Positions 40,046-62,237 of a stretch of 64,000 nt of DNA are shown here, in pieces. The DNA comes from Haloplasma contractile SSD-17B. GTDB taxonomy: Bacteria; Bacillota_I; Bacilli_A; Haloplasmatales; Haloplasmataceae. The notes beneath the pieces were generated by a model that saw nothing but the letters and a program-made list of their open reading frames with translations, ran no database searches and had not been told where the DNA came from. Location: assembly GCF_000215935.2 (NCBI RefSeq), contig NZ_AFNU02000005.1:124001-188000 (forward strand). The letters run 5' to 3'. Numbering within the stretch: position 1 is the stretch's first letter; every line of letters starts with the position of its first letter. The position numbers were made by a program, and so were the translations under genes.

Positions 40046-40678
40046 TTACGTGTAGTTATTAATTTCTTGTATAAAAATTTCAGTTGATGATATTTGCTCA
40101 CTAGCTGGTTTCTTTTTTACTTTACATTTTCTGGGAATAATATAATTATTACAAACATCTTCCTTCTGTTCTGCGGTCATTATATTAAATTTATTAAACA
40201 CAGAGTTATAGTCTTTTAACTGATTCCATGTGTACAGATTATTACCATTCCTTCTAATAATTTCACTCGGATTATTTAATCCTTTTATAATAACAAAATC
40301 TATTGAATAAACATTCTTATTATTCTTTCTATGTCTTAGTGTTATTGCAGTAGTGGAGTCTTCTACTTTTTCATTAAGTTTTTTAAATTTATTAATCGCT
40401 TTTAAAAAATCCTTTTTTATTGCTGTAGGATCATCTAATTCATTTTTACTATTATGTGTTAATATTAACTGAAAGTCTAAATCATAATGGTTGTCTGGAT
40501 CCTTTACAATTGTATTTCTTGTTGCAGATCCTACTAACTTGTGTATAAATTTATATTTTTCTTTAAGTTCCTTTCTAATTTCACTGATTATTTTTAGTGC
40601 CCTTAATCTAGATTCTTTACTATTCTTTTTACTTACCCTCTGGCATTTTGAGTTAATAGGAAACCCCTCCCATGTCAT
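40046..40678 (-). CDS. Nucleotidyltransferase (Pol-beta fold)
   Basis: Up to 210 residues. Gly50-Ser51 then Asp66-x-Asp68 and a third acid Asp127 in a hydrophobic strand give the full metal-binding triad of the nucleotidyltransferase superfamily (CD-NTase, MNT or tRNA-NT type). The start is uncertain: the first ATG (40678) has no ribosome site and lies about 10 bases after a TATAAT box, while a strong GGGAGGGG lies inside the frame 6 bases before an ATT codon at 40657. It may modify RNA, a protein (as MNT AMPylates HEPN toxins) or make a nucleotide signal. Confidence 0.7.
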   Translation of the reverse strand: MTWEGFPINSKCQRVSKKNSKESRLRALKIISEIRKELKEKYKFIHKLVGSATRNTIVKDPDNHYDLDFQLILTHNSKNELDDPTAIKKDFLKAINKFKKLNEKVEDSTTAITLRHRKNNKNVYSIDFVIIKGLNNPSEIIRRNGNNLYTWNQLKDYNSVFNKFNIMTAEQKEDVCNNYIIPRKCKVKKKPASEQISSTEIFIQEINNYT

Positions 40679-46819: not shown

Positions 46820-48595
46820 TCAAAAAGGATCAAAAGCTTTATTCTCAATCTTCTTAGATTCCTTATTGCTAAAAATTCCTTCATCACCTAGTAATTTAAC
46901 ATTTCTACTTAATGGTTCATTAACTTCGTCTACTATTTTTATTTTAGCGAACATAGGAAATATGAATCCAGTACCAGATATAATACATTCCCCAGGTCCA
47001 AGAACAGATAGCATATCAATTTGTCTTTTATCCATAAAAGATACAGTTTTTTCAATATGTTTAATATCATTTTTATTTACTAGTTTATGAATAAAGTAAT
47101 TGTGTAGCTGTGATGTAATAGTTTCTGAGATATCAGAAGGTCTTTGACTAGATATTATTAAGAATACTCCATACTTTCTACCTTCTTTTATAATCTTTTC
47201 AAATACTTCAACGCTATTTGATGCTATATCATTACTTTCTTTACTCGGTTTAAGTATATTATGAGCCTCATCAATTACTATATTTCTAATCTGCTTGATC
47301 CCTTTACTTCTATCATTTTTTCTCATACTATCGAATATTAAGTCAGATATAATACTCGGAACTAATTCTCTAATTTCTTGATTTACTTGTCCCAATTGAA
47401 TAACTACAATATTTTTTTGAGATAAAGAAGTTATCTCATTTTCTGATTCATTAAAAATTTTATTAAAATCCTTTATTCGATTCTTTAATCGTGTAATTAG
47501 TGGTTTAACGAACTCTAGGTTATTTCCATGAGTTGCATATTGAAACACAGAATATATAAGCTCAAACTCAAACCTTTCTAGCCATGTCTTAGGTTCTATA
47601 ACCTTTATTTTTTCTAGACTTTGATGTTCAATATCATTAATAAAGTCAAAATGTTTCTTATTATCAAAATCTACTGTAGTATTACTTTTATCTATAAATG
47701 AGTTTGACCGACCACTAATGAATTGAAAGTCTTCCAATCCCATAATATATTTATAAAGTTCATTTCTAATCGTATATATTGCATTCTTTTGACAGTTTAT
47801 AATTGCCCACCTTATAGAGTTTATTTTCTGTTCTGAATCAAACTCACCCTTCATATTCCTTAGAGCTCGTTTAATAATTGGCATCTGTGTTTTCTTTGTA
47901 GCATTTAACAATACTCCTAGTTGATCTTCAGATAGTTTTGAATAATCAATTGGTATCCTTTTTTTACTTTGTGTTTGTGTAGTTAATTTAATAACTTCTT
48001 TATTTTGTAAGTTTGTTATAGCATTATCTCCATACTCATTATTCAAGTCAAATAATAATGTCTGGGCAATTTTACTATTGATCCTTTTATCCTCAATTAT
48101 ATTAAGGTATTCTTGTAGTATTTTGGTTAATGTATTAGATTTACCACTACCAGTATTACCAAAAATTCCAATGTGAGTTGGTATAACACTATTTAAATCT
48201 ATAGAAATTTTTCTAGTAGGTTCAAATAAGTCATTACCAATATTTAAATTCATTGAATCATTACTGACAAATAATGATTTATAATCATCCTCAGTAAACA
48301 GTCTAATTTTTGCACCTACTAATGGGAGATATCTAAGTCCTTGGCTGAATAATCCTTTCTCAATAGATCCTATCACGTTTAACTCCAATATTTTTTGATT
48401 TTTATCATTTACACTTACTTCTTCACCGGTAATTTGACAAACAACGGATACAAGACCTACATTTGTTTTGACGTACGAATTTATTTTTGGACCTAAAAAG
48501 ACATTACTGTTCTTAACCATATAAGGAGGGAGTTTTTCATAGAACCTACCTTTGACTCTAATTCCATATACACTAGTTATTTCACCTATTATCAT
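46820..48595 (-). CDS. herA: HerA-family ATPase of a SIR2-HerA system
   Basis: About 591 residues. N-terminal HAS-barrel-like region (1-110), then a DUF87/HerA motor with Walker A Gly-Asn-Thr-Gly-Ser-Gly-Lys-Ser (about 152-159), Walker B Ile-Val-Ile-Asp-Glu-Ala-His and Ser-Ser-Gln-Arg-Pro. HerA forms hexamers. With the SIR2 gene directly upstream (14-base overlap) this matches the SIR2-HerA antiphage system, which depletes NAD+ on infection. The ATG at 48595 follows a GAGG site. Confidence 0.88.
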   Translation of the reverse strand: MIIGEITSVYGIRVKGRFYEKLPPYMVKNSNVFLGPKINSYVKTNVGLVSVVCQITGEEVSVNDKNQKILELNVIGSIEKGLFSQGLRYLPLVGAKIRLFTEDDYKSLFVSNDSMNLNIGNDLFEPTRKISIDLNSVIPTHIGIFGNTGSGKSNTLTKILQEYLNIIEDKRINSKIAQTLLFDLNNEYGDNAITNLQNKEVIKLTTQTQSKKRIPIDYSKLSEDQLGVLLNATKKTQMPIIKRALRNMKGEFDSEQKINSIRWAIINCQKNAIYTIRNELYKYIMGLEDFQFISGRSNSFIDKSNTTVDFDNKKHFDFINDIEHQSLEKIKVIEPKTWLERFEFELIYSVFQYATHGNNLEFVKPLITRLKNRIKDFNKIFNESENEITSLSQKNIVVIQLGQVNQEIRELVPSIISDLIFDSMRKNDRSKGIKQIRNIVIDEAHNILKPSKESNDIASNSVEVFEKIIKEGRKYGVFLIISSQRPSDISETITSQLHNYFIHKLVNKNDIKHIEKTVSFMDKRQIDMLSVLGPGECIISGTGFIFPMFAKIKIVDEVNEPLSRNVKLLGDEGIFSNKESKKIENKAFDPF

Positions 48596-49511
48596 TATGT
48601 AAAACCTCATTTAGCAACTCTGTAAACACTAAAGTAGAATCTTTTTCTTTCGAATTTTTCTGTTTAATTTCTATAATTCTATCTTTTAGCGTCTCATCAC
48701 ACTTCTCATCATTATCATAGTTTATCCATATAATAGTAAGGCCTTTTTCGTATAAATCTGATAGTAATTTATTTATATGATTATCTCCCCATGAATATCC
48801 AATTATTATAATTACAGAATTTAATCTCATTAGTTCACTTTTCATACTAAACAAAAGTTGAAAGTATTTGTCATAAATTGCCTTATCATACTTTTGTACA
48901 CCAGGTGTAATTATATTTTCGAGTTTTAATTTACCTTTATAAACACTGCCATGTATTTTCGATACATTATAAGAAGGGATAACATTATTAATTTTTGAAT
49001 CAATAACATAATAATCATGGAATCTTACAGTCCTTGGATTATCACTAGTAATCACATTACATAGCGCACCAGTTGATTCAATTATATCTTCTACTATATC
49101 ATCATAATTTAAGGTAAATATATTTACTTTAGACATTGTTTCTATTGTGTTTTCTGATGATTCAATAAGTCTCTCAAGTTTTATAAACATATTCTTTAAA
49201 TTAATAAGTGACTGATGATTATAATCTATTACATTATAAAATGAATGAAATTCATCAACAAATGTTGTTAACACTTCTTTTTTACTAGATTCATCATCTA
49301 TAAGATCAAGAGACTCCTCAAATAATTTTATTTCTTCTTCTCCAAGATTCTCACACATTTTTTGCATTGTATCTTTAAAACCATTTAATAATTTAAAGCC
49401 TCCACCGTTTACACCTGCTCCAAATAAAAAGTTAATGTGCGAACTTGATAGTATTTGATCAAGTTTATACTTTAAAATATTTTCTTTATAGATATTATTA
49501 TCTTCTATCAT
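48582..49511 (-). CDS. SIR2-domain NADase
   Basis: 309 residues. Gly-Ala-Gly-Val (31-34) corresponds to the NAD-binding GAGxS loop. Leu-Asn-Tyr-Asp (about 153-156) supplies the catalytic Asn, Lys-Ile-His-Gly (about 195-200) the catalytic His, and Ile-Gly-Tyr-Ser-Trp-Gly-Asp a late SIR2_2 motif. All core residues are kept, so it should hydrolyse NAD+. It forms an operon with herA. Its promoter holds a sequence shared with the HTH-OLD promoter (see 49585-49600). Confidence 0.88.
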   Translation of the reverse strand: MIEDNNIYKENILKYKLDQILSSSHINFLFGAGVNGGGFKLLNGFKDTMQKMCENLGEEEIKLFEESLDLIDDESSKKEVLTTFVDEFHSFYNVIDYNHQSLINLKNMFIKLERLIESSENTIETMSKVNIFTLNYDDIVEDIIESTGALCNVITSDNPRTVRFHDYYVIDSKINNVIPSYNVSKIHGSVYKGKLKLENIITPGVQKYDKAIYDKYFQLLFSMKSELMRLNSVIIIIGYSWGDNHINKLLSDLYEKGLTIIWINYDNDEKCDETLKDRIIEIKQKNSKEKDSTLVFTELLNEVLHNDNR

Positions 49512-49730: not shown

Positions 49731-51122
49731 TTATTTTCCAACTAGCTGTTTTAAGTTTAAAGCCTTGGCTGTGTAACTATTCTTTATAACGCAATTACAT
49801 TTACAATTATTCTCAGAATGATTGAGTGTGATAACGCCACCTATTGCATGGTACAACTGATTAAATTTATAATTTAATATATTATCTATAGATGTAACGT
49901 AACCTAAAAATAAGTTAACTTCTAAAGAAGCCAGGTTCATGCTAAAAGAAAATACATTTTCTCTACCATCATTGTTATTGTAATCAACGTTAATATATAC
50001 CGCATCTTTAGCTTGACCATATTTCTCATCTTGCACCTTCCCATAATCATATACATTTCCACAGTCCATACAAATTTTACTAGGTGCAATTATTTGTGTT
50101 CTCCATGAGATATTACGTGGACCATGTAAATTTTCCGATAATTCAATTAGCACTCCACCATCTATAACAGGTATTAGATGAGATATTGCTATATAGTTTA
50201 ACACATATCTAGGATAATGTTTGTCAACGCAGGAGAAGATAAAATCACAGTCTAATATTTTAGTTAGACTAGAATCATCTTCTAACTTTCCAAAATGTGT
50301 ACTAATTTCCAAATCAGATGATGTAGCAGAATTTTTTATATTTCTTTTTGCTACATTAATTTTTTTTCTTTTCAAAATTGAATCAATTTTTTTTGCGCCA
50401 TCTGTTCTATCAAGATTTCTTTCTTCAATTCTATCGAAATCGATCAAATAAAACTTTCTGACACCAATACGGGCTAGGGCGCTAACAACTAAACTTCCAA
50501 CACTTCCTAATCCGACTATTGCTACTCTAAAATCTTCTATATGTTTTTGATGCTCATCACCCCATACTGACATTGTTGCAATTTTTCTTTTTCTGTTAGA
50601 AATATTCGTTTGAGATAGTCCTGGATTATAAAAGCATTTAAAATCCTTATCAACAATTCGAATTTTTCGCACGTCTACTTTATGGTATAATGACTGCTTC
50701 TTTTTCAACCAGAAACGTCCTGATATTGTACCATCTGTACCTATAGTTAGGCCTAATAATGGTTTCTTTGTTTTGGAGTATATTATAGGTGCAAGTTCCT
50801 CTCTTTCAGCAGTTATATCATCTTTACTCATTTTTTGCCACCCAGGTGTAAAGTGATTATGTATTAATCCTAAACCACAATTCTCTGGAATATTAGCTAA
50901 TACTCTTAGTAAATAAGATTGCTTAAAAGATACATTGCCATTTAAATTCAATTCCTCATCATTAGGCAAAGGAATTTCGTTATCAATTACAGCTGTTATC
51001 CTTTTTACCCCTTTTGATTCACGCCAAAAGAAAAACGTTAGTCTTTCTTGGTTGGAGTCTCTCATTAAGTCACGAAAAATACTTTGTGCTGAATTAGTTA
51101 GTGCTACATCGTATTCTATCAT
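49731..51122 (-). CDS. JAB protease-E1 activating enzyme fusion
   Basis: About 463 residues. The N-terminal JAB/JAMM domain (1-150) has His88-x-His90, Ser99 and Asp102 (zinc ligands; the His-x-His to Ser gap is 8 rather than 7) and an early Glu near 35. The C-terminal ThiF/E1 domain has Gly-Leu-Gly-Ser-Val-Gly (204-209), Asp-Phe-Asp and Asn-Leu-Asp-Arg, Cys-Val-Asp-x-His-Tyr-Pro-Arg, and two Cys clusters near 352-355 and at the C-terminus. It should adenylate and transfer the Ubl, with the JAB part trimming or removing it. The start at 51122 overlaps the E2 stop by one base. Confidence 0.85.
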   Translation of the reverse strand: MIEYDVALTNSAQSIFRDLMRDSNQERLTFFFWRESKGVKRITAVIDNEIPLPNDEELNLNGNVSFKQSYLLRVLANIPENCGLGLIHNHFTPGWQKMSKDDITAEREELAPIIYSKTKKPLLGLTIGTDGTISGRFWLKKKQSLYHKVDVRKIRIVDKDFKCFYNPGLSQTNISNRKRKIATMSVWGDEHQKHIEDFRVAIVGLGSVGSLVVSALARIGVRKFYLIDFDRIEERNLDRTDGAKKIDSILKRKKINVAKRNIKNSATSSDLEISTHFGKLEDDSSLTKILDCDFIFSCVDKHYPRYVLNYIAISHLIPVIDGGVLIELSENLHGPRNISWRTQIIAPSKICMDCGNVYDYGKVQDEKYGQAKDAVYINVDYNNNDGRENVFSFSMNLASLEVNLFLGYVTSIDNILNYKFNQLYHAIGGVITLNHSENNCKCNCVIKNSYTAKALNLKQLVGK

Positions 51123-51511
51123 TAATTTATATCCTCTATAAACGTATACAATAATTGAGTCCATAAATCTTGAGGAGTCGCAGGTTGATTAATAAATCTC
51201 CTGCTCCAATATTGCCATTCTACACCTATTTTACTTTTAAGGACATTACGAGCAGTCACATTTCTACCATTTACGTTTTTAGTAATTCTTTTAAAACTGG
51301 CTAAATGTGGTGAGACGTGTACTGAAGGGTGAGGACAGAAAGGAACTGTGTTTGTGTTCTTTATTGCAATACTTACCAGAGACCCTTCATAAGGGCCTGC
51401 TGGTAATTTATAGTTCTCAATGATTAAATATTGACCGTCAGCTACTGTTTCCCATCTAGTAGATAAGTTAAGTTCATGATTTATAAATCTTTTAAAATCT
51501 TCTATTGTCAT
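51122..51511 (-). CDS. E2-like protein of the ubiquitin-like module
   Basis: 129 residues. Beta-rich core with Gly-Pro-Tyr-Glu-Gly-Ser-Leu-Val-Ser-Ile-Ala-Ile and Val-Pro-Phe-Cys-Pro-His-Pro-Ser-Val-His, resembling a prokaryotic E2 (UBC) fold. The single cysteine is Cys59, placed before the Pro-x-Val strand rather than after it as in classical E2s. It lies between the Ubl and JAB-E1 genes, which is the main support for this call. Confidence 0.65.
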   Translation of the reverse strand: MTIEDFKRFINHELNLSTRWETVADGQYLIIENYKLPAGPYEGSLVSIAIKNTNTVPFCPHPSVHVSPHLASFKRITKNVNGRNVTARNVLKSKIGVEWQYWSRRFINQPATPQDLWTQLLYTFIEDIN

Positions 51512-51526
51512 AAAATATCACTACTT

Positions 51527-51754
51527 TTAGGATACAGGGTTAGGTCTCTTAGGTATAACTAAGAATTCTTCGTTAGGATTGATATTTTCTTCAATTGACT
51601 TTTCTAGAATCTTTTGTGGGTTGTTTGCTCTAACAAGGTCATTATTTTCTGGATTATAACCTGCTTTTGTTAAAATATTATAAGGTGTTATTTTTCTGTT
51701 TGTAGTTTCTTGTTTTACTGAATTTACGTAATATGTTATCTTTTTTTCTTTCAT
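51527..51754 (-). CDS. Ubiquitin-like protein
   Basis: 75 residues. Beta-grasp pattern: Ile-Thr-Tyr-Tyr-Val-Asn, Arg-Lys-Ile-Thr-Pro, a helix Tyr-Asn-Ile-Leu-Thr-Lys-Ala-Gly-Tyr, and a last strand Glu-Glu-Phe-Leu-Val-Ile-Pro, like multiubiquitin-type Ubls. The C-terminus ends Pro-Asn-Pro-Val-Ser with no Gly-Gly. The ATG at 51754 has an AAGGAG site, so the frame extension from 51769 is not used. A perfect palindrome (CACATTTTTAATGTG, minus strand) lies just upstream. Confidence 0.7.
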   Translation of the reverse strand: MKEKKITYYVNSVKQETTNRKITPYNILTKAGYNPENNDLVRANNPQKILEKSIEENINPNEEFLVIPKRPNPVS

Positions 51755-51842
51755 AATTCTCCTTTTCACATTAAAAATGTGACTTGCGATGGTCGCAACC
51801 CTATTTTAAACATCTATTACATTTAATGAAAGAACTATGAAA

Positions 51843-51871
51843 TTAACCATCATTTATTCTACACATATAGA
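51843..51871 (+). promoter_or_regulatory. Promoter-like pair for the structured RNA
   Basis: TTAACC (51843-51848) and TATAGA (51866-51871) with a 17-base spacer, four of six matches each. It predicts a start near 51878. Confidence 0.4.
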
Positions 51872-51877
51872 ATCTCC

Positions 51878-51995
51878 CCTTTCGTAAAGAAGGGGACTTG
51901 TGTTTTAGAGTATAGTTTGATATACTATTAATGTTTAAATAAAAATACAAGTCCTTTTAGAGATTAATGTTGGCAGACATTAGTCTCTTTTTCTT
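51878..51995 (+). ncRNA. Candidate structured small RNA with intrinsic terminator
   Basis: A 13-bp stem (51894-51906 with 51942-51954, one G.U pair) encloses a 6-bp hairpin (AGTATA 51909-51914, TATACT 51921-51926). It is followed by a 12-bp terminator hairpin (51959-51970 with 51977-51988, one G.U pair) and TTTTTCTTT. The T-run occurs only on the plus strand, opposite to the flanking genes. No reading frame of note is present. It is divergent from the Ubl gene. Family unknown. Confidence 0.5.
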
Positions 51996-52092
51996 TACAT
52001 ATATAAATTTGTCATTTTACGTGCCGACATATTGCACACTAATATTATTTAATGTCCTCATAGTATTGGACATGTAGCATGATACTATAAGA

Positions 52093-52887
52093 CTAAACAG
52101 TTTTTCTGTCCCTAATTTCTAAAACTTTATTCAATATATTTTTAGCAGTTTTCGATTCAAGAGGCTCTCCAGAAGTATGCCCCAATTCCTTTAGGGCCTG
52201 ATCTAATAGTAAATTAAATTCTTCTTTTCTCTTATTTCTCAACTCTGTTAACTCCTCTACTCGTTTTATAAATTTTTCATGATAGGAGTTAAAGTCTTTT
52301 ATATACTTGACATAGTAATCTTCATTAATATTATTACTATTATTACTATTATTTAAAAACAACGATAGCGAATTATATAAACTTGCTTCAATGTTTTTAG
52401 CAAATACTTCTTTTGTTTCTTCATAATAATTCACATCGATTATATTATTAATTTTACCGAAATAACTAACTATATATTTAAATAATGATTCCTTTAACAT
52501 TTCGTCACTTACCAAGAGTATTGTTTCAAAATACTTTTCAGTATGACTGTCAAGCTTTTCCACCATTAACTCATTAAATTTTTTAATGAGTCTTTTTTGA
52601 TTTGTGTTAAATTTATTAAAGTTGACAATTTCATCATGAGGTTTTGTCTTACTTTTTATTTTATTTATAATTAGTCTCTTTTCGTCATTAGAATGATGCT
52701 TGTTTGTAAATTCTTCTAGTGATTCAACCATAAAAAGATCACTTAATTGGATTTGTATGTGACTTGGTATATCTTCTTTCTTCCCATTCAAGTATCCATT
52801 CAAAGTTTGCCTTGATATACCTAAATAATCGGATAACAATTGTTGTGAAATACCTAGTTCTCTAATTTTATCCTTCATCTTTATCAC
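52093..52887 (-). CDS. HTH protein with long C-terminal helical region
   Basis: 264 residues. The N-terminal helix-turn-helix (about 10-42) has Ile-Ser-Gln-Gln-Leu-Leu-Ser-Asp-Tyr-Leu-Gly-Ile-Ser-Arg-Gln-Thr-Leu. A long charged helical region follows with an Asn-rich patch (about 185-195). It is similar in plan to the 175-residue HTH protein at 54911-55438. A near-consensus promoter precedes it. It probably binds the TGACAC sites upstream. A phage-sensing or repressor role is inferred. Confidence 0.7.
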   Translation of the reverse strand: MIKMKDKIRELGISQQLLSDYLGISRQTLNGYLNGKKEDIPSHIQIQLSDLFMVESLEEFTNKHHSNDEKRLIINKIKSKTKPHDEIVNFNKFNTNQKRLIKKFNELMVEKLDSHTEKYFETILLVSDEMLKESLFKYIVSYFGKINNIIDVNYYEETKEVFAKNIEASLYNSLSLFLNNSNNSNNINEDYYVKYIKDFNSYHEKFIKRVEELTELRNKRKEEFNLLLDQALKELGHTSGEPLESKTAKNILNKVLEIRDRKTV

Positions 52888-53058: not shown

Positions 53059-54918
53059 TTATAACATTAGTCTTTCTATCAATTGTTTGAAATTAGATAA
53101 CGTTTCAGCACATAAGTTACCTTTATAATCATTTATGTTGTTTTTAAAATTTACTGAACTATAATATTTCTTTTCGTCAATAAATTTAAATTTTCTTCGG
53201 TCTTCTTCCACAAATAAGTCTTCAATCTCGTTAAATTCATCATTAACTTCATTCAATTGTATTATTTCAATATTATTATTATCTTTTAGATAATTGTATA
53301 ACTCCACACCAGCTTTATCAGAGTCTACTAATAATATTGGATCTTTCGTTACCTTTAGTAATTGAGTCAATAGGTTTTCTTTTTTTATCCCCTGTATTGG
53401 CAATACTGTTAAGTTATTGATGTTTAATAATTTCTTAAAAGCAATTAAATAGTTGTAATCTGTAACACCTTCTACAAATATCACAGTATTTTCTGTATTG
53501 ACTAATATGTTTTTTCTTACTGTTAAAGCACTTCTTATCGGGTATAACACATCTGCGTTATTTTCATCGATAAGGGTAAATTTATTATTTATATAAGTAA
53601 TATAATTTCTTTTTTCAACTACTCTTAGTTCATCAAGGCTATCAACATCTATCAAGAATGGTGAATGAGTGCTTACAATAAATGTCCATTGATTTTTTAC
53701 TGCCAAGTCTTTAATTAATTTTCTTAATTCTAGTTGACCTATAACATGAAGATTAGTTGCAGGTTCATCCATTAATATGATAGACCCCTTATCTAATGTA
53801 TTATCAGATATCATATTAAAGAAAAAATTAAAGAACCATTTAAATCCACTAGATTGATCATCAAAATAAACACTTTGATTTGAATCGCGTATAATGAAAT
53901 CTATTCGACTTGTTTCAAGTGATACACTAAAATCATATTGTGATTTATTTATTTGGTATATCGCATTAAATTTATCGGATAATATTTTTTATTCTTCATT
54001 AACCTGATCTTCGAAATCCTTTAATACCCCTTTATTTGTTCCTCCAAATTGTATAAATTTTTTGTAACAAGTTTCTAAATGCTCTAATTTAAAATTATCC
54101 AGCATTGTAAATAATTTTGAGAAAAATATAAGGTTAGACAATTTACCATTACTAACATCACTAAACATATCGTTTGAGCTAAAGGTTATTTTGTCATTAT
54201 AAACAAAGATAGTTGGTTTTAATTTTAGCCCGTACTTATCCTCAAATTGATTCATAATCTTTGTTTGTTGATTTTCATCTTCTTTAGTCATGTCTCTAAG
54301 TTTTATGAGGTCATCATATATTGATTTTAATTCATTATTTCGTTGATATTCTTGATTAAAATGTCTATTTTTCCAGAGACTGCTAACTAATTGATTAAGT
54401 GTATTCCACATGGCATAAAGATCATTTTGTGTTTTACATTTGCTGATTGCATTAAATACCCCTTTCAGTAATTCATGAAAATTTCTGTAATGAGAATTTA
54501 TAATCATTTTAAGCATTTTATCTTTATTTTTAATTAATCGTTCTATAATTTGTTGCGTTTCAGATTCGATTTCTTTCAGTTTTTCTTCTTCATTATTTGG
54601 TATATAATCTACATACTTTCTAGTACCTTTAACCTTAACTTCATATCTTCCTTCATCTGTGTTAACTACATATTTAACTTTCGGCACAAGATCTTTTTCA
54701 TATATAAATTTAGGTGCATTAGCTTGTCCTATTTTTTCTCCATTAAACTGATTAATCGCTTCAATAATATTCGATTTTCCAGAGTTATTTAAACCTATTA
54801 TAACTACTAACCCTCCTACACCCTCATCCATATTATCGATTGCCGTTAATTCTAAATCTTCATATTCGTTAATTCCTAGTGTTCTAAAGTTCTCAAACTT
54901 AAATAATCGCTTAATCAT
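53059..54918 (-). pseudogene. OLD-like ATPase/TOPRIM nuclease, interrupted by an in-frame TAA
   Basis: Two long frames are the same frame, separated only by TAA at 53989-53991; joined they make about 619 codons. The first 309 residues have Walker A Gly-Leu-Asn-Asn-Ser-Gly-Lys-Ser. After the TAA come a Ser-Ser-Gly signature (Gln-Ser-Ser-Gly-Phe-Lys-Trp), Walker B Ile-Ile-Leu-Met-Asp-Glu-Pro, the H-loop Ser-Thr-His-Ser-Pro and a TOPRIM domain (Val-Glu-Gly-Val-Thr-Asp; Leu-Val-Asp-Ser-Asp-Lys). This is the ABC-ATPase/TOPRIM layout of OLD-family nucleases (as in GajA). The downstream piece has no ribosome site. The upstream HTH gene overlaps it by 8 bases. It is a nonsense mutation, a sequencing error or read-through. 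Confidence 0.8.
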
Positions 54919-55438
54919 TCTCTAATCCCTCCGTTAACAATTTTTTAACCTCTTGTAGTTTTTCTTCAGTTCTTTCTACTTTTTTATTCATTACTGCCAG
55001 TCCATAAAGTATTTGAAAATGTTGATCTAAATTAATGTCTTCTAAAGCTTTTCTGTTATTCATTAATTTAAATACTATATTTAATGACTTTAAGAATGAC
55101 TCGTCTTTTACATATTTAATTATATTAAGTAAAAACTGTAATTTATCTGTGGAAGTTTCATTTTTTAAACATTCAATTATCTCACTGACAAGAAGATCTT
55201 CCCTACTAAATATTTTATCTTCATTTAATATACTAATTATATAAGTAATGACGTCTTTTTTAGTAATATCATCATTACTTTCTATGTAAAAGAAAATTTT
55301 TCTAATTGATGGATTAAGGTTCTCATAATTTTCATTTTCAAAGTCCTCAATATATTTATATAATGTTGGTCTAGATATACTCAAGTAATTAGATAACTCT
55401 GTTAATCTAAGGTTAATCATACGTAATTTATCTCTCAT
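54911..55438 (-). CDS. HTH regulator of the OLD-like operon
   Basis: 175 residues. N-terminal helix-turn-helix (Leu-Ser-Asn-Tyr-Leu-Ser-Ile-Ser-Arg-Pro-Thr-Leu-Tyr-Lys-Tyr, about 15-30) and a helical remainder with a coiled C-terminus (about 150-170). It overlaps the ATPase start by 8 bases. Its promoter contains ATGTAAAA repeats, so it likely regulates itself, and by shared sequence possibly SIR2-HerA. Confidence 0.72.
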   Translation of the reverse strand: MRDKLRMINLRLTELSNYLSISRPTLYKYIEDFENENYENLNPSIRKIFFYIESNDDITKKDVITYIISILNEDKIFSREDLLVSEIIECLKNETSTDKLQFLLNIIKYVKDESFLKSLNIVFKLMNNRKALEDINLDQHFQILYGLAVMNKKVERTEEKLQEVKKLLTEGLEND

Positions 55439-56324: not shown

Positions 56325-59300
56325 CTAATACCTTCTTAATGCTACCTTCATGTTTTCTTCAATGATTTTATCAAAATCTTCTACATTTAATTCAGGAAGA
56401 TGTTGTCGCTTAAACTTGAACAATAAGAAATCAATATCCTGCTTCATTTTCTTGTGCACATCATTATTATCGTGCCAATCAACTTTAGAATGATCATCGA
56501 TGATCATATCAATTGATAGAGCAAGTTCTGCAATTTCGTTCTCTTTATCCTCTATATTAACTACATTTTCAATTACTTCTTTCGTTACACCATAGAATGC
56601 TTGTGCATGATTATTATTCTTAATTGCTTTAGGATACGACACACCTGTGTTTCCTTTTCGCAAATCATCTTTTAGTTTATTCATGCTTTGTAAGTATTCT
56701 GCATCAGAAATACGTTTCTCTCTATAATTTTCTATTGTTTCAGTGATTAGTTCTGAAAACTTCTTATAGAATGCAGGATCTTCTTGATACTTCTTACTTA
56801 TATGTTTTGTCATTCTTGTACGAATTGCATCCGCTTTTGCTCGTCTGGAGCCCAGATCATCGAGTTCTTTTTCAAATCCTTTTTCATCTAAGATATTAAC
56901 TGGGTTAGTAATTCGAATCACTTCTTCAGCTGCAATATAGTTATCCATAATACTTTGCATCTTCGCTTCATATTCTTTATGATCAATAGTATCTGAGTAT
57001 TGTAATTTTACTGAACCTCGCAATTCCTGAAAGAATTTTAAGTCACGTTTATATTTCCCTAGTTCTTCTTCGCCCAATGCATTATAGACATGTTCCGACT
57101 CTAGTGCTATACCCATGAATTTAGCAAATTCTCTTAGATAGTTATAGAAATCATCACGTAATTTATCATCTTCTAAAAAGATTGCATATTGTTGTATTTT
57201 ATCTTTAACATTTTTATACGAGATAGAACTAAAGTGTTGAACTAAGTTAGAATAAGCCCCCCTTAGTTGGCTTACGACACTAATGACGTCTACTAATGCA
57301 CCTTTTAAGTCTTCACTATCAAAATTCTCAAGTCCTGCACCCGAATAGGTTTCCATAGCATCGTTTAGTTGATTAATAAGTCCTCTGTAATCCACAATGT
57401 AACCAAAGTCTTTTCCTTCATATAGACGATTTACACGTGCAATTGCCTGTAGTAGATTGTGTTCTTTCATTGGCTTATCAATGTAGAGTACCGTTGCTCT
57501 TGGGGCATCAAATCCTGTTAGTAGTTTGTCTACAACAATTAGGAGATCAATTTCATCTCCATCAACAAAGTCACTTTTCACATGTTGTTCGTAGCGTTCT
57601 GCATCTCCATATTGATTCATCATTTTATTCCAGAAGTTAATGATGATATCTTTAGATGTTTCATCAATGGCTTCATGACCCTCTCTTTGGTCTGGGGGGG
57701 ATATGACTACAGCACAGTTTAGGTCACCTAAATCTTCAAATGCTTTTAAGTATTGGACTGCTTCTTTCTTAGAACTTGTTGCAAGCATAGCTTTAAACTG
57801 AGAATCTTTATTCTTGTAAGAATTTTTAAAATGTTCATTTATATCATAGGCAACTAAATTGATTCGTTGTTCAGATGATGCGATTCGTTCAAACTTACTC
57901 CACTTTTTCAGTACTTCTTCCTTTTGTTTTTCTGATAAGTTACGTGTAATGATTTCAAGACGAGTATCAATGGCCTTCTGATTGACAGTTTGTTCAATCA
58001 TTCTCCCTTCATATAGAAGAGGTAAAATTGCTTTATCATCAACACCATCTTTAATCGTATATTTATGGATTAACTTTCCGAACTTCACCATTGTACTTTT
58101 CTCTTTTTTCATAAGTGGTGTTCCTGTAAACCCTAAGTAACACGCATTCGGTAATACTTTCTTCATTTTCATATGAAGTTCCCCGTACTGAGTACGATGT
58201 GACTCATCAACTAGTACAAAGATATCTTTTGATTCAATAGGATCTTGTTCTCCTGATGCTGTATCAAATTTATGAACAAGTGACGTAATTACATCTGCTC
58301 CATCAGTGTTTAATAGTTCTACTAAATGATGACCTGTTTTTGCACGATCGGCATTTAGTCTTGAATGATTAAATGTCTTATGGATTTGCTCATCTAAACT
58401 AATACGATCAGTAATCACTAGTACTTTAGGGTGAATGTCTGTCATTTCAGATAAGATGAATCGTGTTAACATCACCATCGTCAATGATTTACCAGATCCC
58501 TGTGTATGCCAAATGACACCTGATTGACGGTTACCATCTTTATTTGTTTTACCAATTGTGTCTATTATCTCCTTAATTGCAAAGTATTGTTGATAACGTG
58601 CGATCTTCTTTATATTTTTATCATATAGTGTGAAGTATTGTGTTAATTCAATTAATCGTTTGGGATGAAAGAGTGAGATTATATTTTGATCTTGGTTTGT
58701 TGGAGTACGATCAGTGACAAACTTACTTAATTGAGTTGTATACCAATCACTCTCTTCTTCTTTCCATACTGACCAGAACTTTTTAGGTGTTCCACTTGTA
58801 GCATACTTCGCTTCATTCTTATTGGTAGCCATAACGACTTGGACATATTTAAAGAGTTGGGGAATGTAGTTTTCCTTTTGGTTTCTGATCATCTGGCTAA
58901 TTCCTTGATTAACAGTTATAGATGACTTCTTGCATTCAATTACTCCAAACGGTATTCCATTTACAAATAGTACAATATCAGGTCGAATTGTTCCTTTTCC
59001 ATCCATACGTTCTACAATGAATTCTTCCATCATATGAAATTCATTGTTTTCAGGGTGTTCCCAATCAACATACTTTAGACTGAAAGATCTAGTTCCATTT
59101 CCATCCGGTAACTTTTCAGGATAGCTACGTCCTAATAGTAGCGCATCATAAATTTTCTCATTTGTTTTAACCAATCCATCGACTAATGGTATATCTAAAT
59201 CACGGACCGCCTGTTCAATATTTTTCTTACTAAACTTATATTTACTCTCTTTATACTCATATTCATTTAACTCGATTAACTTTTTATACAAAATATCTTT

Positions 59301-59435
59301 TAGAATCACATTATCAAGTGATCCCCTCATTGAGTCTGCAACATCAGTTGTTAGTTTCTTATATCCCATTTTCGCTACCACTTCTAATGCTGGTATTTGT
59401 GAGATATTTTGTTCGTTAAATTCATTTTTCATCAT
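56325..59435 (-). CDS. hsdR: Type I restriction enzyme, R subunit
   Basis: About 1036 residues. The N-terminal nuclease has Pro-Asp-Ile-Val-Leu and Gly-Val-Ile-Glu-Cys-Lys-Lys. The SF2 translocase has Gln-Gly-Ser-Gly-Lys-Ser, Val-Asp-Glu-Ser-His-Arg and Gly-Phe-Thr-Gly-Thr-Pro motifs, and a helical C-terminus contacts the methylase. It cuts DNA lacking the host methylation after ATP-driven translocation. ATG at 59435 with a GAGGTG site. Length is normal and the frame intact. Confidence 0.94.
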   Translation of the reverse strand: MMKNEFNEQNISQIPALEVVAKMGYKKLTTDVADSMRGSLDNVILKDILYKKLIELNEYEYKESKYKFSKKNIEQAVRDLDIPLVDGLVKTNEKIYDALLLGRSYPEKLPDGNGTRSFSLKYVDWEHPENNEFHMMEEFIVERMDGKGTIRPDIVLFVNGIPFGVIECKKSSITVNQGISQMIRNQKENYIPQLFKYVQVVMATNKNEAKYATSGTPKKFWSVWKEEESDWYTTQLSKFVTDRTPTNQDQNIISLFHPKRLIELTQYFTLYDKNIKKIARYQQYFAIKEIIDTIGKTNKDGNRQSGVIWHTQGSGKSLTMVMLTRFILSEMTDIHPKVLVITDRISLDEQIHKTFNHSRLNADRAKTGHHLVELLNTDGADVITSLVHKFDTASGEQDPIESKDIFVLVDESHRTQYGELHMKMKKVLPNACYLGFTGTPLMKKEKSTMVKFGKLIHKYTIKDGVDDKAILPLLYEGRMIEQTVNQKAIDTRLEIITRNLSEKQKEEVLKKWSKFERIASSEQRINLVAYDINEHFKNSYKNKDSQFKAMLATSSKKEAVQYLKAFEDLGDLNCAVVISPPDQREGHEAIDETSKDIIINFWNKMMNQYGDAERYEQHVKSDFVDGDEIDLLIVVDKLLTGFDAPRATVLYIDKPMKEHNLLQAIARVNRLYEGKDFGYIVDYRGLINQLNDAMETYSGAGLENFDSEDLKGALVDVISVVSQLRGAYSNLVQHFSSISYKNVKDKIQQYAIFLEDDKLRDDFYNYLREFAKFMGIALESEHVYNALGEEELGKYKRDLKFFQELRGSVKLQYSDTIDHKEYEAKMQSIMDNYIAAEEVIRITNPVNILDEKGFEKELDDLGSRRAKADAIRTRMTKHISKKYQEDPAFYKKFSELITETIENYREKRISDAEYLQSMNKLKDDLRKGNTGVSYPKAIKNNNHAQAFYGVTKEVIENVVNIEDKENEIAELALSIDMIIDDHSKVDWHDNNDVHKKMKQDIDFLLFKFKRQHLPELNVEDFDKIIEENMKVALRRY

Positions 59436-59474
59436 AATATCCACCTCATAAATTAATATCAAAAAGTGAAGAAA

Positions 59475-60707
59475 TTAATCCTTCACTCTTACAATCCCAG
59501 TTAATAATAATTGCATTAATCCTTTTTTCTGTTGTTTAAGTTGGTCTAGTTGCTGTTCCAGGAGATTTATTTCTTTGTCTGCAGTTGATAAAACATCAGC
59601 TATTGCTTTCTGTTCTTTTAAATCTGTCGGCATAATAATTTTAAATGTTTCTAATGGATTACGTGTAATCTGTGGTTGTCCCGATCCTGAAACTAACTTT
59701 TGAAAGTTTGAATTTAAACACAGATAGTAAACAAAATCTTTCACAACATCTTTATTTTCATCAGTATTAAGTACCATCGCATTTCCTGTTATCCATGATT
59801 TTGCTTTAGATTTATTCACAGTACCACATGTTGATCCCCGACAAGTTATCATTATTTGCCACGTATCATGATTATATTGATCATAGTATCCAATTAAACC
59901 ATTTGCTCCATAAACAGGATATCCTGATGCTTTTAATTGTGACTGAGATATTGTTTGAGGCTGATAAAGTTTACCTACTTGTTTTAATTTTACTTCGTTC
60001 CACTCACCAGTAAATTCTTTTAATCGTTTTTTACCAGTTAAAAGTAATTGCATTAATCCTCTTTTTTGTTCTTTTTTTTGCTTAATTAGTTCTTCCTTTA
60101 AGTCGATTGCTTTATCCCATGTTGAAAGGATGTTTGCTATTTTATTTTGTTCAGATAAACTTGGTAGTGGTAATAACAATGATTTTAAATCTCTAGAGTA
60201 TATATGAACTACCGAGTGGCCTTGGCCAACTTTTCTTCTTTGACTATTAATTAACGGTCCATTTAATGCAAACCCTAAATATTTACTATTGTTAGATTGT
60301 ACTGGCCTAAGGATTACTATATCTCCTCCAGCATATGCTTCTTTGTCTTCCAAGTATGCTACAGACTTACCAATCTCTTCTAATGTTTCCCCAGAACCTG
60401 CAAATAAGATATCACCCTGCATAATTAATTTAGCATTATGGGTTTCACTTTTAGGAATAAATGAAATAAAATTCTTTATATAATTATGATGTTTTGTATA
60501 TATCTCACCATACCGAATACATGGTATTCCATCTTCAACTAGTTCTTTTTTAGAGATACCTTTTCCTTTTAAAAACTCACCTATATCCCCTATCTTTACT
60601 AATTTCCAATCATCAGGAATTATTCCAACCTTTGTTCTTTTATACCCAATCGGAACTATATTGTTATTTATGTTATCTATTTTTTCACTGACTCTATCTA
60701 TCATCAT
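59475..60707 (-). CDS. hsdS: Type I restriction enzyme, specificity subunit
   Basis: About 410 residues with two target-recognition domains (about 25-170 and 210-350), each followed by a conserved helix ending in Lys-x-Gly-Leu-Met-Gln-Leu-Leu-Leu-Thr-Gly. This internal repeat (near 195 and 400) is typical of two-TRD HsdS proteins that read a bipartite site. ATG at 60707 is chosen. The recognition sequence cannot be read from sequence alone. Confidence 0.93.
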   Translation of the reverse strand: MMIDRVSEKIDNINNNIVPIGYKRTKVGIIPDDWKLVKIGDIGEFLKGKGISKKELVEDGIPCIRYGEIYTKHHNYIKNFISFIPKSETHNAKLIMQGDILFAGSGETLEEIGKSVAYLEDKEAYAGGDIVILRPVQSNNSKYLGFALNGPLINSQRRKVGQGHSVVHIYSRDLKSLLLPLPSLSEQNKIANILSTWDKAIDLKEELIKQKKEQKRGLMQLLLTGKKRLKEFTGEWNEVKLKQVGKLYQPQTISQSQLKASGYPVYGANGLIGYYDQYNHDTWQIMITCRGSTCGTVNKSKAKSWITGNAMVLNTDENKDVVKDFVYYLCLNSNFQKLVSGSGQPQITRNPLETFKIIMPTDLKEQKAIADVLSTADKEINLLEQQLDQLKQQKKGLMQLLLTGIVRVKD

Positions 60708-60713
60708 AAACAC

Positions 60714-62237
60714 CTACAACCCTAATTCATCTAGGTATATTTGCATCTGTTCTTCAACTTCTTTTAACTGATTAGTAACGTTATTTATGTTACTCTTAAC
60801 TTCATCCATATCTACAGGTTCTTCTTCTTCAAAAGTATCAACATAACGAGGGATATTAAGATTGTAATCATTCTCTTTAATCTTATCTAATGAAGCTACA
60901 GAACTAAATTTATCTATCGTTTCATATTTCTCATAAGCATCTACAATTCGTTCAATGTCTTCTTCTCGTAATACATTTTGGTTTTTACCTTTTTCATAGT
61001 ATTCTTCACCACTTGCATCAATAAATAATACATCTTTTTTATTTCGATTCTGTTTAAAAATCATTATAGTTGCAGGAATACTAGCTCCAAAGAATAAGTT
61101 TGCAGGTAAACCAATCACTGCATCAAGCAGGTTCATATCAATGATTTGCTTTCTAATCTTTCCTTCTGAACTTCCTCTAAATAACACACCATGCGGTAAT
61201 ACGACTCCCATACGTCCACCTTCTGCTAATGAGTGTAACATATGTTGAACAAAGGCATAGTCACCTTTACTCTTTGGAGGAACCCCCCAGTCAAAACGTA
61301 CATATGGGTCGAGTGATGGTTCCATCTTGAACTTCTTATCATTATCACCACTGAATCCCATTGCCCACTTATCCAATGAGAACGGTGGATTGGCCACTAT
61401 TACCTGGAATTTCATTAGTTTATCATTTTCTAAATGTTTTGGATTTGCTAGAGTATCTCCCCATGCAATCTTAGCATCATCTAAACCATGAAGAAACATA
61501 TTCATACGTGCTAATGAATGAGTTTGTCCATTTCGTTCTTGACCATACACCTGTGCTTTTCCACTAGGAATCTTGTCAAATGCTTTTAATAGTAATGATC
61601 CAGAACCACACGTTGGATCATAGATGCGATCATTTTCCTGTGGTTTAACTAATCTTGATAATATTTCTGACACTTGTGATGGAGTAAAGAACTCTCCACC
61701 TTTTTTACCTGCATCTGATGCAAAACGTGAAATTAGATACTCATAGGCATCACCAATTACATCTGTACCTATCAAACGAGAAGGTGCTAAGTTTAACTTG
61801 TTAAAGTCTTCTAATAGGTGTTTTAACATCGCATTACGATCTTTTGTATTTCCTAATACTGATTCAGAGTTAAAGTCGATGTTTTTAAATACACCTCTTA
61901 ACTTCGTTTTGTTTTCTTCTTCTATATGTGCTAATGCTGTATTAATAATCTCACCAATATTTGATGCGTTACGTTTATCATATAAATAATCAAATGTAGA
62001 ACGTTCATCAAGTACAAAACGTCCATATCTAAGTTGACGTTCTACCATCGCTTCATCATGATCAAACTGTTCCATTAATTCATTTTTTCTTTCTTTGTAC
62101 ATATCACTTACATATTTAATAAATAACATTACAAGAATGTAGTCTTTATAGATTGATGAGTCAATTTTTCCTCTAAAGGTGTCACATGCTTGCCATAAGA
62201 TACTATTAACTTCTGATTGTGTAAATTTCTTTTCCAT
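60714..62237 (-). CDS. hsdM: Type I restriction enzyme, methyltransferase subunit
   Basis: 507 residues. N-terminal helical domain, then an adenine-N6 methyltransferase with Asp-Pro-Thr-Cys-Gly-Ser-Gly-Ser (SAM binding, about 208-215) and catalytic Asn-Pro-Pro-Phe (about 284-287), then a coiled C-terminus. It is first gene of the hsdMSR operon; GGAGGG precedes the ATG. Confidence 0.95.
   Translation of the reverse strand: MEKKFTQSEVNSILWQACDTFRGKIDSSIYKDYILVMLFIKYVSDMYKERKNELMEQFDHDEAMVERQLRYGRFVLDERSTFDYLYDKRNASNIGEIINTALAHIEEENKTKLRGVFKNIDFNSESVLGNTKDRNAMLKHLLEDFNKLNLAPSRLIGTDVIGDAYEYLISRFASDAGKKGGEFFTPSQVSEILSRLVKPQENDRIYDPTCGSGSLLLKAFDKIPSGKAQVYGQERNGQTHSLARMNMFLHGLDDAKIAWGDTLANPKHLENDKLMKFQVIVANPPFSLDKWAMGFSGDNDKKFKMEPSLDPYVRFDWGVPPKSKGDYAFVQHMLHSLAEGGRMGVVLPHGVLFRGSSEGKIRKQIIDMNLLDAVIGLPANLFFGASIPATIMIFKQNRNKKDVLFIDASGEEYYEKGKNQNVLREEDIERIVDAYEKYETIDKFSSVASLDKIKENDYNLNIPRYVDTFEEEEPVDMDEVKSNINNVTNQLKEVEEQMQIYLDELGL

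Follow-up and report, generated by a model that had tools for sequence, protein, structure and literature searches.

A C-terminal glycine is, to our knowledge, close to universal among ubiquitin-like proteins (Ubl) that are conjugated. A small operon in Haloplasma contractile SSD-17B, encoding a Ubl that ends in serine, an E2-like protein and a fusion of a JAB protease with an E1 domain, raises the question of how a Ubl of this kind could be activated, passed on and removed. The operon lies in a stretch of 64,000 nucleotides (contig NZ_AFNU02000005.1, positions 124,001 to 188,000), hereafter called the window, to which all coordinates refer unless a locus is named.

Organization of the operon and its relation to Bub

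Three compact, co-directional genes occupy 49731-51754 on the minus strand, and the open reading frames were found where the initial annotation had placed them. The features of the operon and its borders are:

51527..51754, minus strand: Ubl (BubA-like), 75 amino acids, ATG start, AGGAG ribosome site
51122..51511, minus strand: E2-like protein (BubB-like, Prok-E2_E), 129 amino acids
49731..51122, minus strand: JAB-E1 fusion (BubCD-like), 463 amino acids
49694..49717, minus strand: intrinsic-terminator-like hairpin with a 10-bp stem and a T-rich tail, ending the operon ahead of the SIR2 gene
51784..51798, no strand: TTGCGA-N3-TCGCAA, a perfect palindrome chosen by eye, some 30 bases ahead of the point where the Ubl gene starts

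The Ubl and E2 genes are separated by 15 bases. The JAB-E1 open reading frame could be extended to 51164 (477 amino acids), but the start giving 463 amino acids appears likelier because its ATG overlaps the E2 stop codon (TAATG), and the numbering of the JAMM residues given earlier (His88, His90, Ser99, Asp102) is correct for this start. The three-gene arrangement is not a product of chance, because Ubl and E2 homologues were found upstream of a homologous JAB-E1, in the same order, in most of the 90 loci examined (Ubl in 86, E2 in 85). The operon is probably a unit of its own, since the terminator-like hairpin parts it from the downstream SIR2 gene; the hairpin was detected on both strands, and the region contained 9 terminator-like sites versus 1.3 expected. 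The leader of the Ubl gene (51755-52092) is long and contains several hairpins, a long-range repeat (GGACTTGT...ACAAGTCC) and the palindrome, which has no other exact copy in the window and is a weak candidate for an operator or a hairpin. A search of Rfam with the whole window and with the 5' leader of the Ubl gave no match.

The JAB-E1 protein contains a ThiF domain (Pfam, E = 7e-30), and among named NCBI families ThiF/MoeB come closest to its E1 domain. The residues of the JAMM motif were conserved among 88 JAB-E1 sequences at 99 % (Glu26, His88, Ser99, Asp102) or 100 % (His90), which bears out the proposed fusion of a JAMM metalloprotease to a ThiF/E1 domain and adds Glu26 as a fifth residue that had not been named. 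Taken together, the JAMM residues and those of the E1 nucleotide site are 97-100 % conserved in these sequences, the window included, suggesting that both activities are under selection. The nearest solved relative is Citrobacter BubCD (PDB 9ea4, 2e-13), with the alignment running over the E1 half.

The E2-like protein matched the Pfam family Prok-E2_E (PF14462) above the family cut-off (E = 2.3e-7), and its AlphaFold model, built from an alignment of relatives, had a UBC fold (pLDDT 88.5), as expected for the E2-like protein that had been proposed. The best structural match was Citrobacter BubB (Z 10.2, rmsd 3.1, 112 residues), the similarity to which is weak at the sequence level (9eae; 0.011 with a single sequence, 5e-4 with a profile). 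The following matches of the model were nearly all E2/UEV proteins, eukaryotic E2s among them, at Z 5-6.7, values that would be middling taken alone yet are consistent in kind. The 75-residue protein, modelled in the same way, had the ubiquitin fold (pLDDT 90.1), in agreement with the beta-grasp assignment, and resembled bacterial multi-ubiquitin proteins (Z 9-10; VIA Z 10.2 to 8u38) and ubiquitins (Z about 8). Neither a missing UBC fold nor a missing beta-grasp fold, the two outcomes set beforehand as refuting the proposal, was thus observed. Pfam Multi_ubiq did not match the window Ubl, and matched 7 of 31 Ubls of its branch.

Because Citrobacter BubB is the best match of the E2-like protein and BubCD the nearest solved relative of JAB-E1, the operon is placed with Bub, which Iyer, Burroughs and Aravind described as operon type 6e (2006, PMC1779556), and the proposal of a Bub-related operon for Ubl conjugation and deconjugation stands as a predicted activity. 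The fusion of protease and E1, noted initially, is not distinctive; it is the norm in this group, being the BubCD arrangement and, in the excerpts of the 2006 account used here, a part of type 6e, noted in some actinobacteria, with an N-terminal JAB-E1, a Ubl of 70-75 residues and an E2 fold lacking Cys. Neither a conserved E2 Ser nor a Ubl end without Gly is mentioned in those excerpts.

Citrobacter BubA-BubB-BubCD (PDB 9ea4, 9ea8, 9eae, 9eav) likewise combines Ubl, Prok-E2_E and JAB-E1 in one operon and shares with the window operon the JAMM residues, the E1 nucleotide-site residues and an E2 serine, but BubCD is only 20-22 % identical to the window JAB-E1 and lacks the zinc-type cysteines kept in the window E1. 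Identity between JAB-E1 proteins is 30-45 % within the branch of the window, and only 20-22 % between the window and the Gly-type operons. In Bub operons of the characterised type the Ubl has Gly at its end (Citrobacter, TTEG-type), whereas it has V-S or V-A there in the window branch; in the solved structure of Citrobacter BubA, residues 155-229, the last residue is exactly Gly229 (numbering on the plasmid homologue).

The window operon was accordingly filed as a Bub-like variant branch and not as a plain member: it has an N-terminal JAB-E1 with intact JAMM and adenylation residues, a UBC-fold Prok-E2_E protein and a ubiquitin-fold Ubl alongside, and it lacks a C-terminal Gly on the Ubl and a DUF6527 gene. 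The latter gene is present in most of the other-branch (Gly-type) operons inspected, and most DUF6527-bearing operons have T-T-E-G or N-N-G at the equivalent Ubl site. It is absent from the genome of the window and was not found in 80 genome loci when searched with a single-sequence query from one seed. The link with Gly is imperfect, as two operons of the Gly type lack an annotated DUF6527 in their vicinity.

Two other known systems were rejected as a home for the operon. Bil operons encode E1, E2 and protease as separate proteins and use a Cys-type relay. They too hold a complete bacterial set of Ubl, E1, E2 and protease (PMC12687455); membership was ruled out on the E2-like protein, in which no catalytic Cys is conserved (Cys59 not conserved in 82 sequences). 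Type II CBASS shares the E1, E2-fold and JAB activities in Cap2/Cap3, but it conjugates cGAS and not a Ubl, and Cap2 is an E1-E2 fusion with catalytic cysteines; the window operon has no CD-NTase or Cap2 fusion, its E1 is fused to JAB and its E2 is separate. No PADLOC model matched the window E2 or Ubl.

The branch and the C-terminal end of its Ubl

Prok-E2_E was present in one of 392 genomes of a sample of the phylum and JAB-E1 in one of 395 genomes of a sample of the class, in both cases the genome of the window. A search of genome contigs with a single protein query gave no match, while an alignment query gave 116 relatives. The best 80 of these were fetched, found with patterns derived from the V-[S/A] branch itself, and they came from Spirochaetota, Bacillota, Chloroflexota, Acidobacteriota, Bacteroidota, Actinomycetota, Pseudomonadota and other phyla. 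The window JAB-E1 pairs on the tree with a sequence from Spirochaetaceae (45 % identity). Plasmid-borne relatives occur in Nocardioides, Rhodococcus, Mycobacteroides and Clavibacter; searches of phages, of viral contigs and of plasmid DNA gave no close homologues. The patchy and wide occurrence suggests horizontal spread.

The window Ubl ends in FLVIPKRPNPVS (RPNPVS), Ser75 being the last residue. Its single Gly is Gly32, and as no Gly follows, trimming cannot yield a Gly end; a hidden upstream Gly as the mature end was thus ruled out for the window. The lack of a terminal Gly-Gly had been noted for this Ubl, and the lack is real, but it is no peculiarity of the window Ubl, since V-S or V-A is the rule across the branch. 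A profile from which the C-terminal residues had been left out retrieved 86 Ubls, and an exact V-A or V-S end was present at 69 of the 86 loci. The penultimate residue was Val in 80 of 84 Ubl tails and the last residue Ser in 43, Ala in 40 and Gly in none, nor did Gly occur at either of the last two positions in any of the 84. About six switches between the Ser-type and Ala-type end were seen on the branch tree. This Gly-less branch with V-[S/A] ends (80 loci and plasmids) is new relative to the limited literature with which it was compared.

Eight Ubl-E2 fusions each have V-S or V-A at the junction, and in two of three tailed Ubls the same pair stands right before a short tail, the exception being L017 (TPTSWR). 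The position of the pair points to processing there. The three tailed proteins (L017:4259-4567, TPTS-WR; L031:4217-4633, TPVA-SRNRV; L071:4404-4637, TRVS-WRENV; the tail follows the hyphen) are natural precursors for tests of JAB cleavage.

Possible routes of activation and transfer

We consider it probable that the operon is a Gly-less cassette of the Bub type. The E1 half of JAB-E1 would adenylate the terminal residue of the Ubl, Ser75 here and Ser or Ala branch-wide, and the UBC-fold protein would then take over the Ubl, its invariant Ser103 most likely holding it as an oxyester until it is attached to a target. Fused or tailed Ubl precursors may be cut after V-[S/A] by the JAB half, which may also strip the Ubl off targets. 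In CBASS the C-terminal residue may be Gly or Ala, and a Ser in place of the C-terminal Gly of cGAS abolishes conjugation while Ala is tolerated (PMC10097602). This counts against the model, in that a Ser terminus needs an adapted E1, and the Ser-ending half of the branch, including the window, is the more surprising.

Ser103 (WQYWSRR) is 100 % conserved and the sole fully invariant residue among 82 E2-like proteins. Its equivalent is kept in Citrobacter BubB (WSRH) and in Gly-type/TTEG operons of Synechocystis, R. phaseoli, Pontibacter and others. In the AlphaFold model it sits 10 residues ahead of the last helix, which would put it in the region holding the catalytic Cys of E2s, as a topological argument and not a measured superposition. 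The E2-like protein does have exactly one Cys, as described initially, but this Cys59 is not a conserved residue, the aligned site holding V, T, N, Y or S in other members of the set of 82 sequences, and it was ruled out as the catalytic residue. Nor did the 88 JAB-E1 sequences show a conserved Cys in the region where ThiF/MoeB carry their catalytic one. With no conserved cysteine at the usual place in either enzyme, Ser103 is the most likely acceptor, though it could instead have a structural or hydrogen-bonding role. A study of Bub by Ye, dated 2026, reportedly may describe a non-thioester (oxyester) mechanism.

Evidence against the main model includes C298 of the E1 domain, which is 97 % conserved in the 88 sequences and might, in principle, be the site of a thioester. 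A conventional thioester relay through C298 or another E1 Cys, in which the E2-like protein has no catalytic role and serves as an RWD-like adaptor for presenting Ubl or target, would also fit the judgement of Iyer et al., in the excerpted part of their account, that E2-like domains without Cys in operons of type 6e are inactive (PMC1779556). It is nevertheless judged unlikely: C298 belongs to an SCVD motif in the adenylation domain, outside the region where ThiF/MoeB have their catalytic Cys, the other conserved cysteines of JAB-E1 are paired zinc-type residues (C351/C354 paired with C440/C444, of which C351, C354 and C444 are conserved), and an inactive adaptor has no obvious need for an invariant Ser.

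That the Ubl is mainly a processed, oligomer-forming (filament) signal, the end of which is only capped by E1 and E2 and for which target conjugation is minor, is suggested by solved bacterial multi-Ubl relatives that form filaments (PDB titles 9d59, 9d5b). Those proteins are multi-domain, whereas the window Ubl has a single domain, and we regard this as very improbable. Least probable of all is a carrier of sulfur or a small molecule in a biosynthetic pathway, like ThiS or MoaD, for although the E1 domain is nearest to ThiF/MoeB, sulfur carriers require a C-terminal Gly-Gly that the window Ubl, ending without Gly, does not have, the Ubl is accompanied in its operon by a protein of E2 fold and by a JAB peptidase and by no metabolic gene, and the nearest solved relatives are Bub proteins.

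The cassette proposed for the window may represent a widespread Ubl branch that works without glycine or catalytic cysteine, by activation of a terminal Ser or Ala, an oxyester on the E2 serine and conjugation. This wider claim is put forward tentatively, with less than even confidence.

Genomic surroundings and implications

Protection of the host cell against phage by Bub operons has not been demonstrated (PMC13373217). The physiological role of the window operon may lie in defence or in a stress response. The antiphage role proposed earlier is plausible because the surroundings are rich in defence genes, including SIR2-HerA, type I restriction-modification, Wadjet JetD, TOTE primase-helicase and OLD-like genes. 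Directly downstream, past the terminator, SIR2-like (PF13289) and HerA genes (46820-49511) form a separate unit, a defence pair of the SIR2-HerA type. At 53059-54918 two adjoining open reading frames correspond to the N-terminal part and to the C-terminal part with TOPRIM of an OLD/GajA-like ATPase, and the gene looks split or broken. The defence-rich stretch extends over 6802-62237, with Wadjet JetD (6802), a TOTE primase-helicase (31967), a Schlafen group 3 helicase (40757) and type I restriction-modification genes (56325-62237). At 40046-40678 an oligonucleotide cyclase model of PADLOC was matched weakly (5e-6).

A DNA-damage regulator (CapW, CapH+CapP or CapK+CapS) lies beside only about half of the Bub operons (PMC13373217). 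HTH and ImmA/IrrE (M78) genes are common beside the relatives of the window operon and resemble the Bub-adjacent CapH+CapP (PMC13373217); the HTH protein by the window operon (52093-52887) has no M78 peptidase. This protein, ahead of the Bub-like operon, and a second HTH protein (54911-55438), ahead of the OLD-like genes, have similar N-termini (LSxYLxISRxTL) and are possibly related regulators. Actinobacterial plasmid relatives (L005:831-3066, L006:1753-3146, L010:5657-6334) adjoin sigma-70-like or HTH-ImmA/IrrE genes, possibly another control of Bub-like operons.

If the proposed mechanism is true, the sites of E1, E2 and JAB can be adapted to a Ubl terminus that bears a side chain. The branch offers a natural panel of Ser-type and Ala-type ends for studying how Ubl enzymes read the terminus, and it may provide a new conjugation tool.
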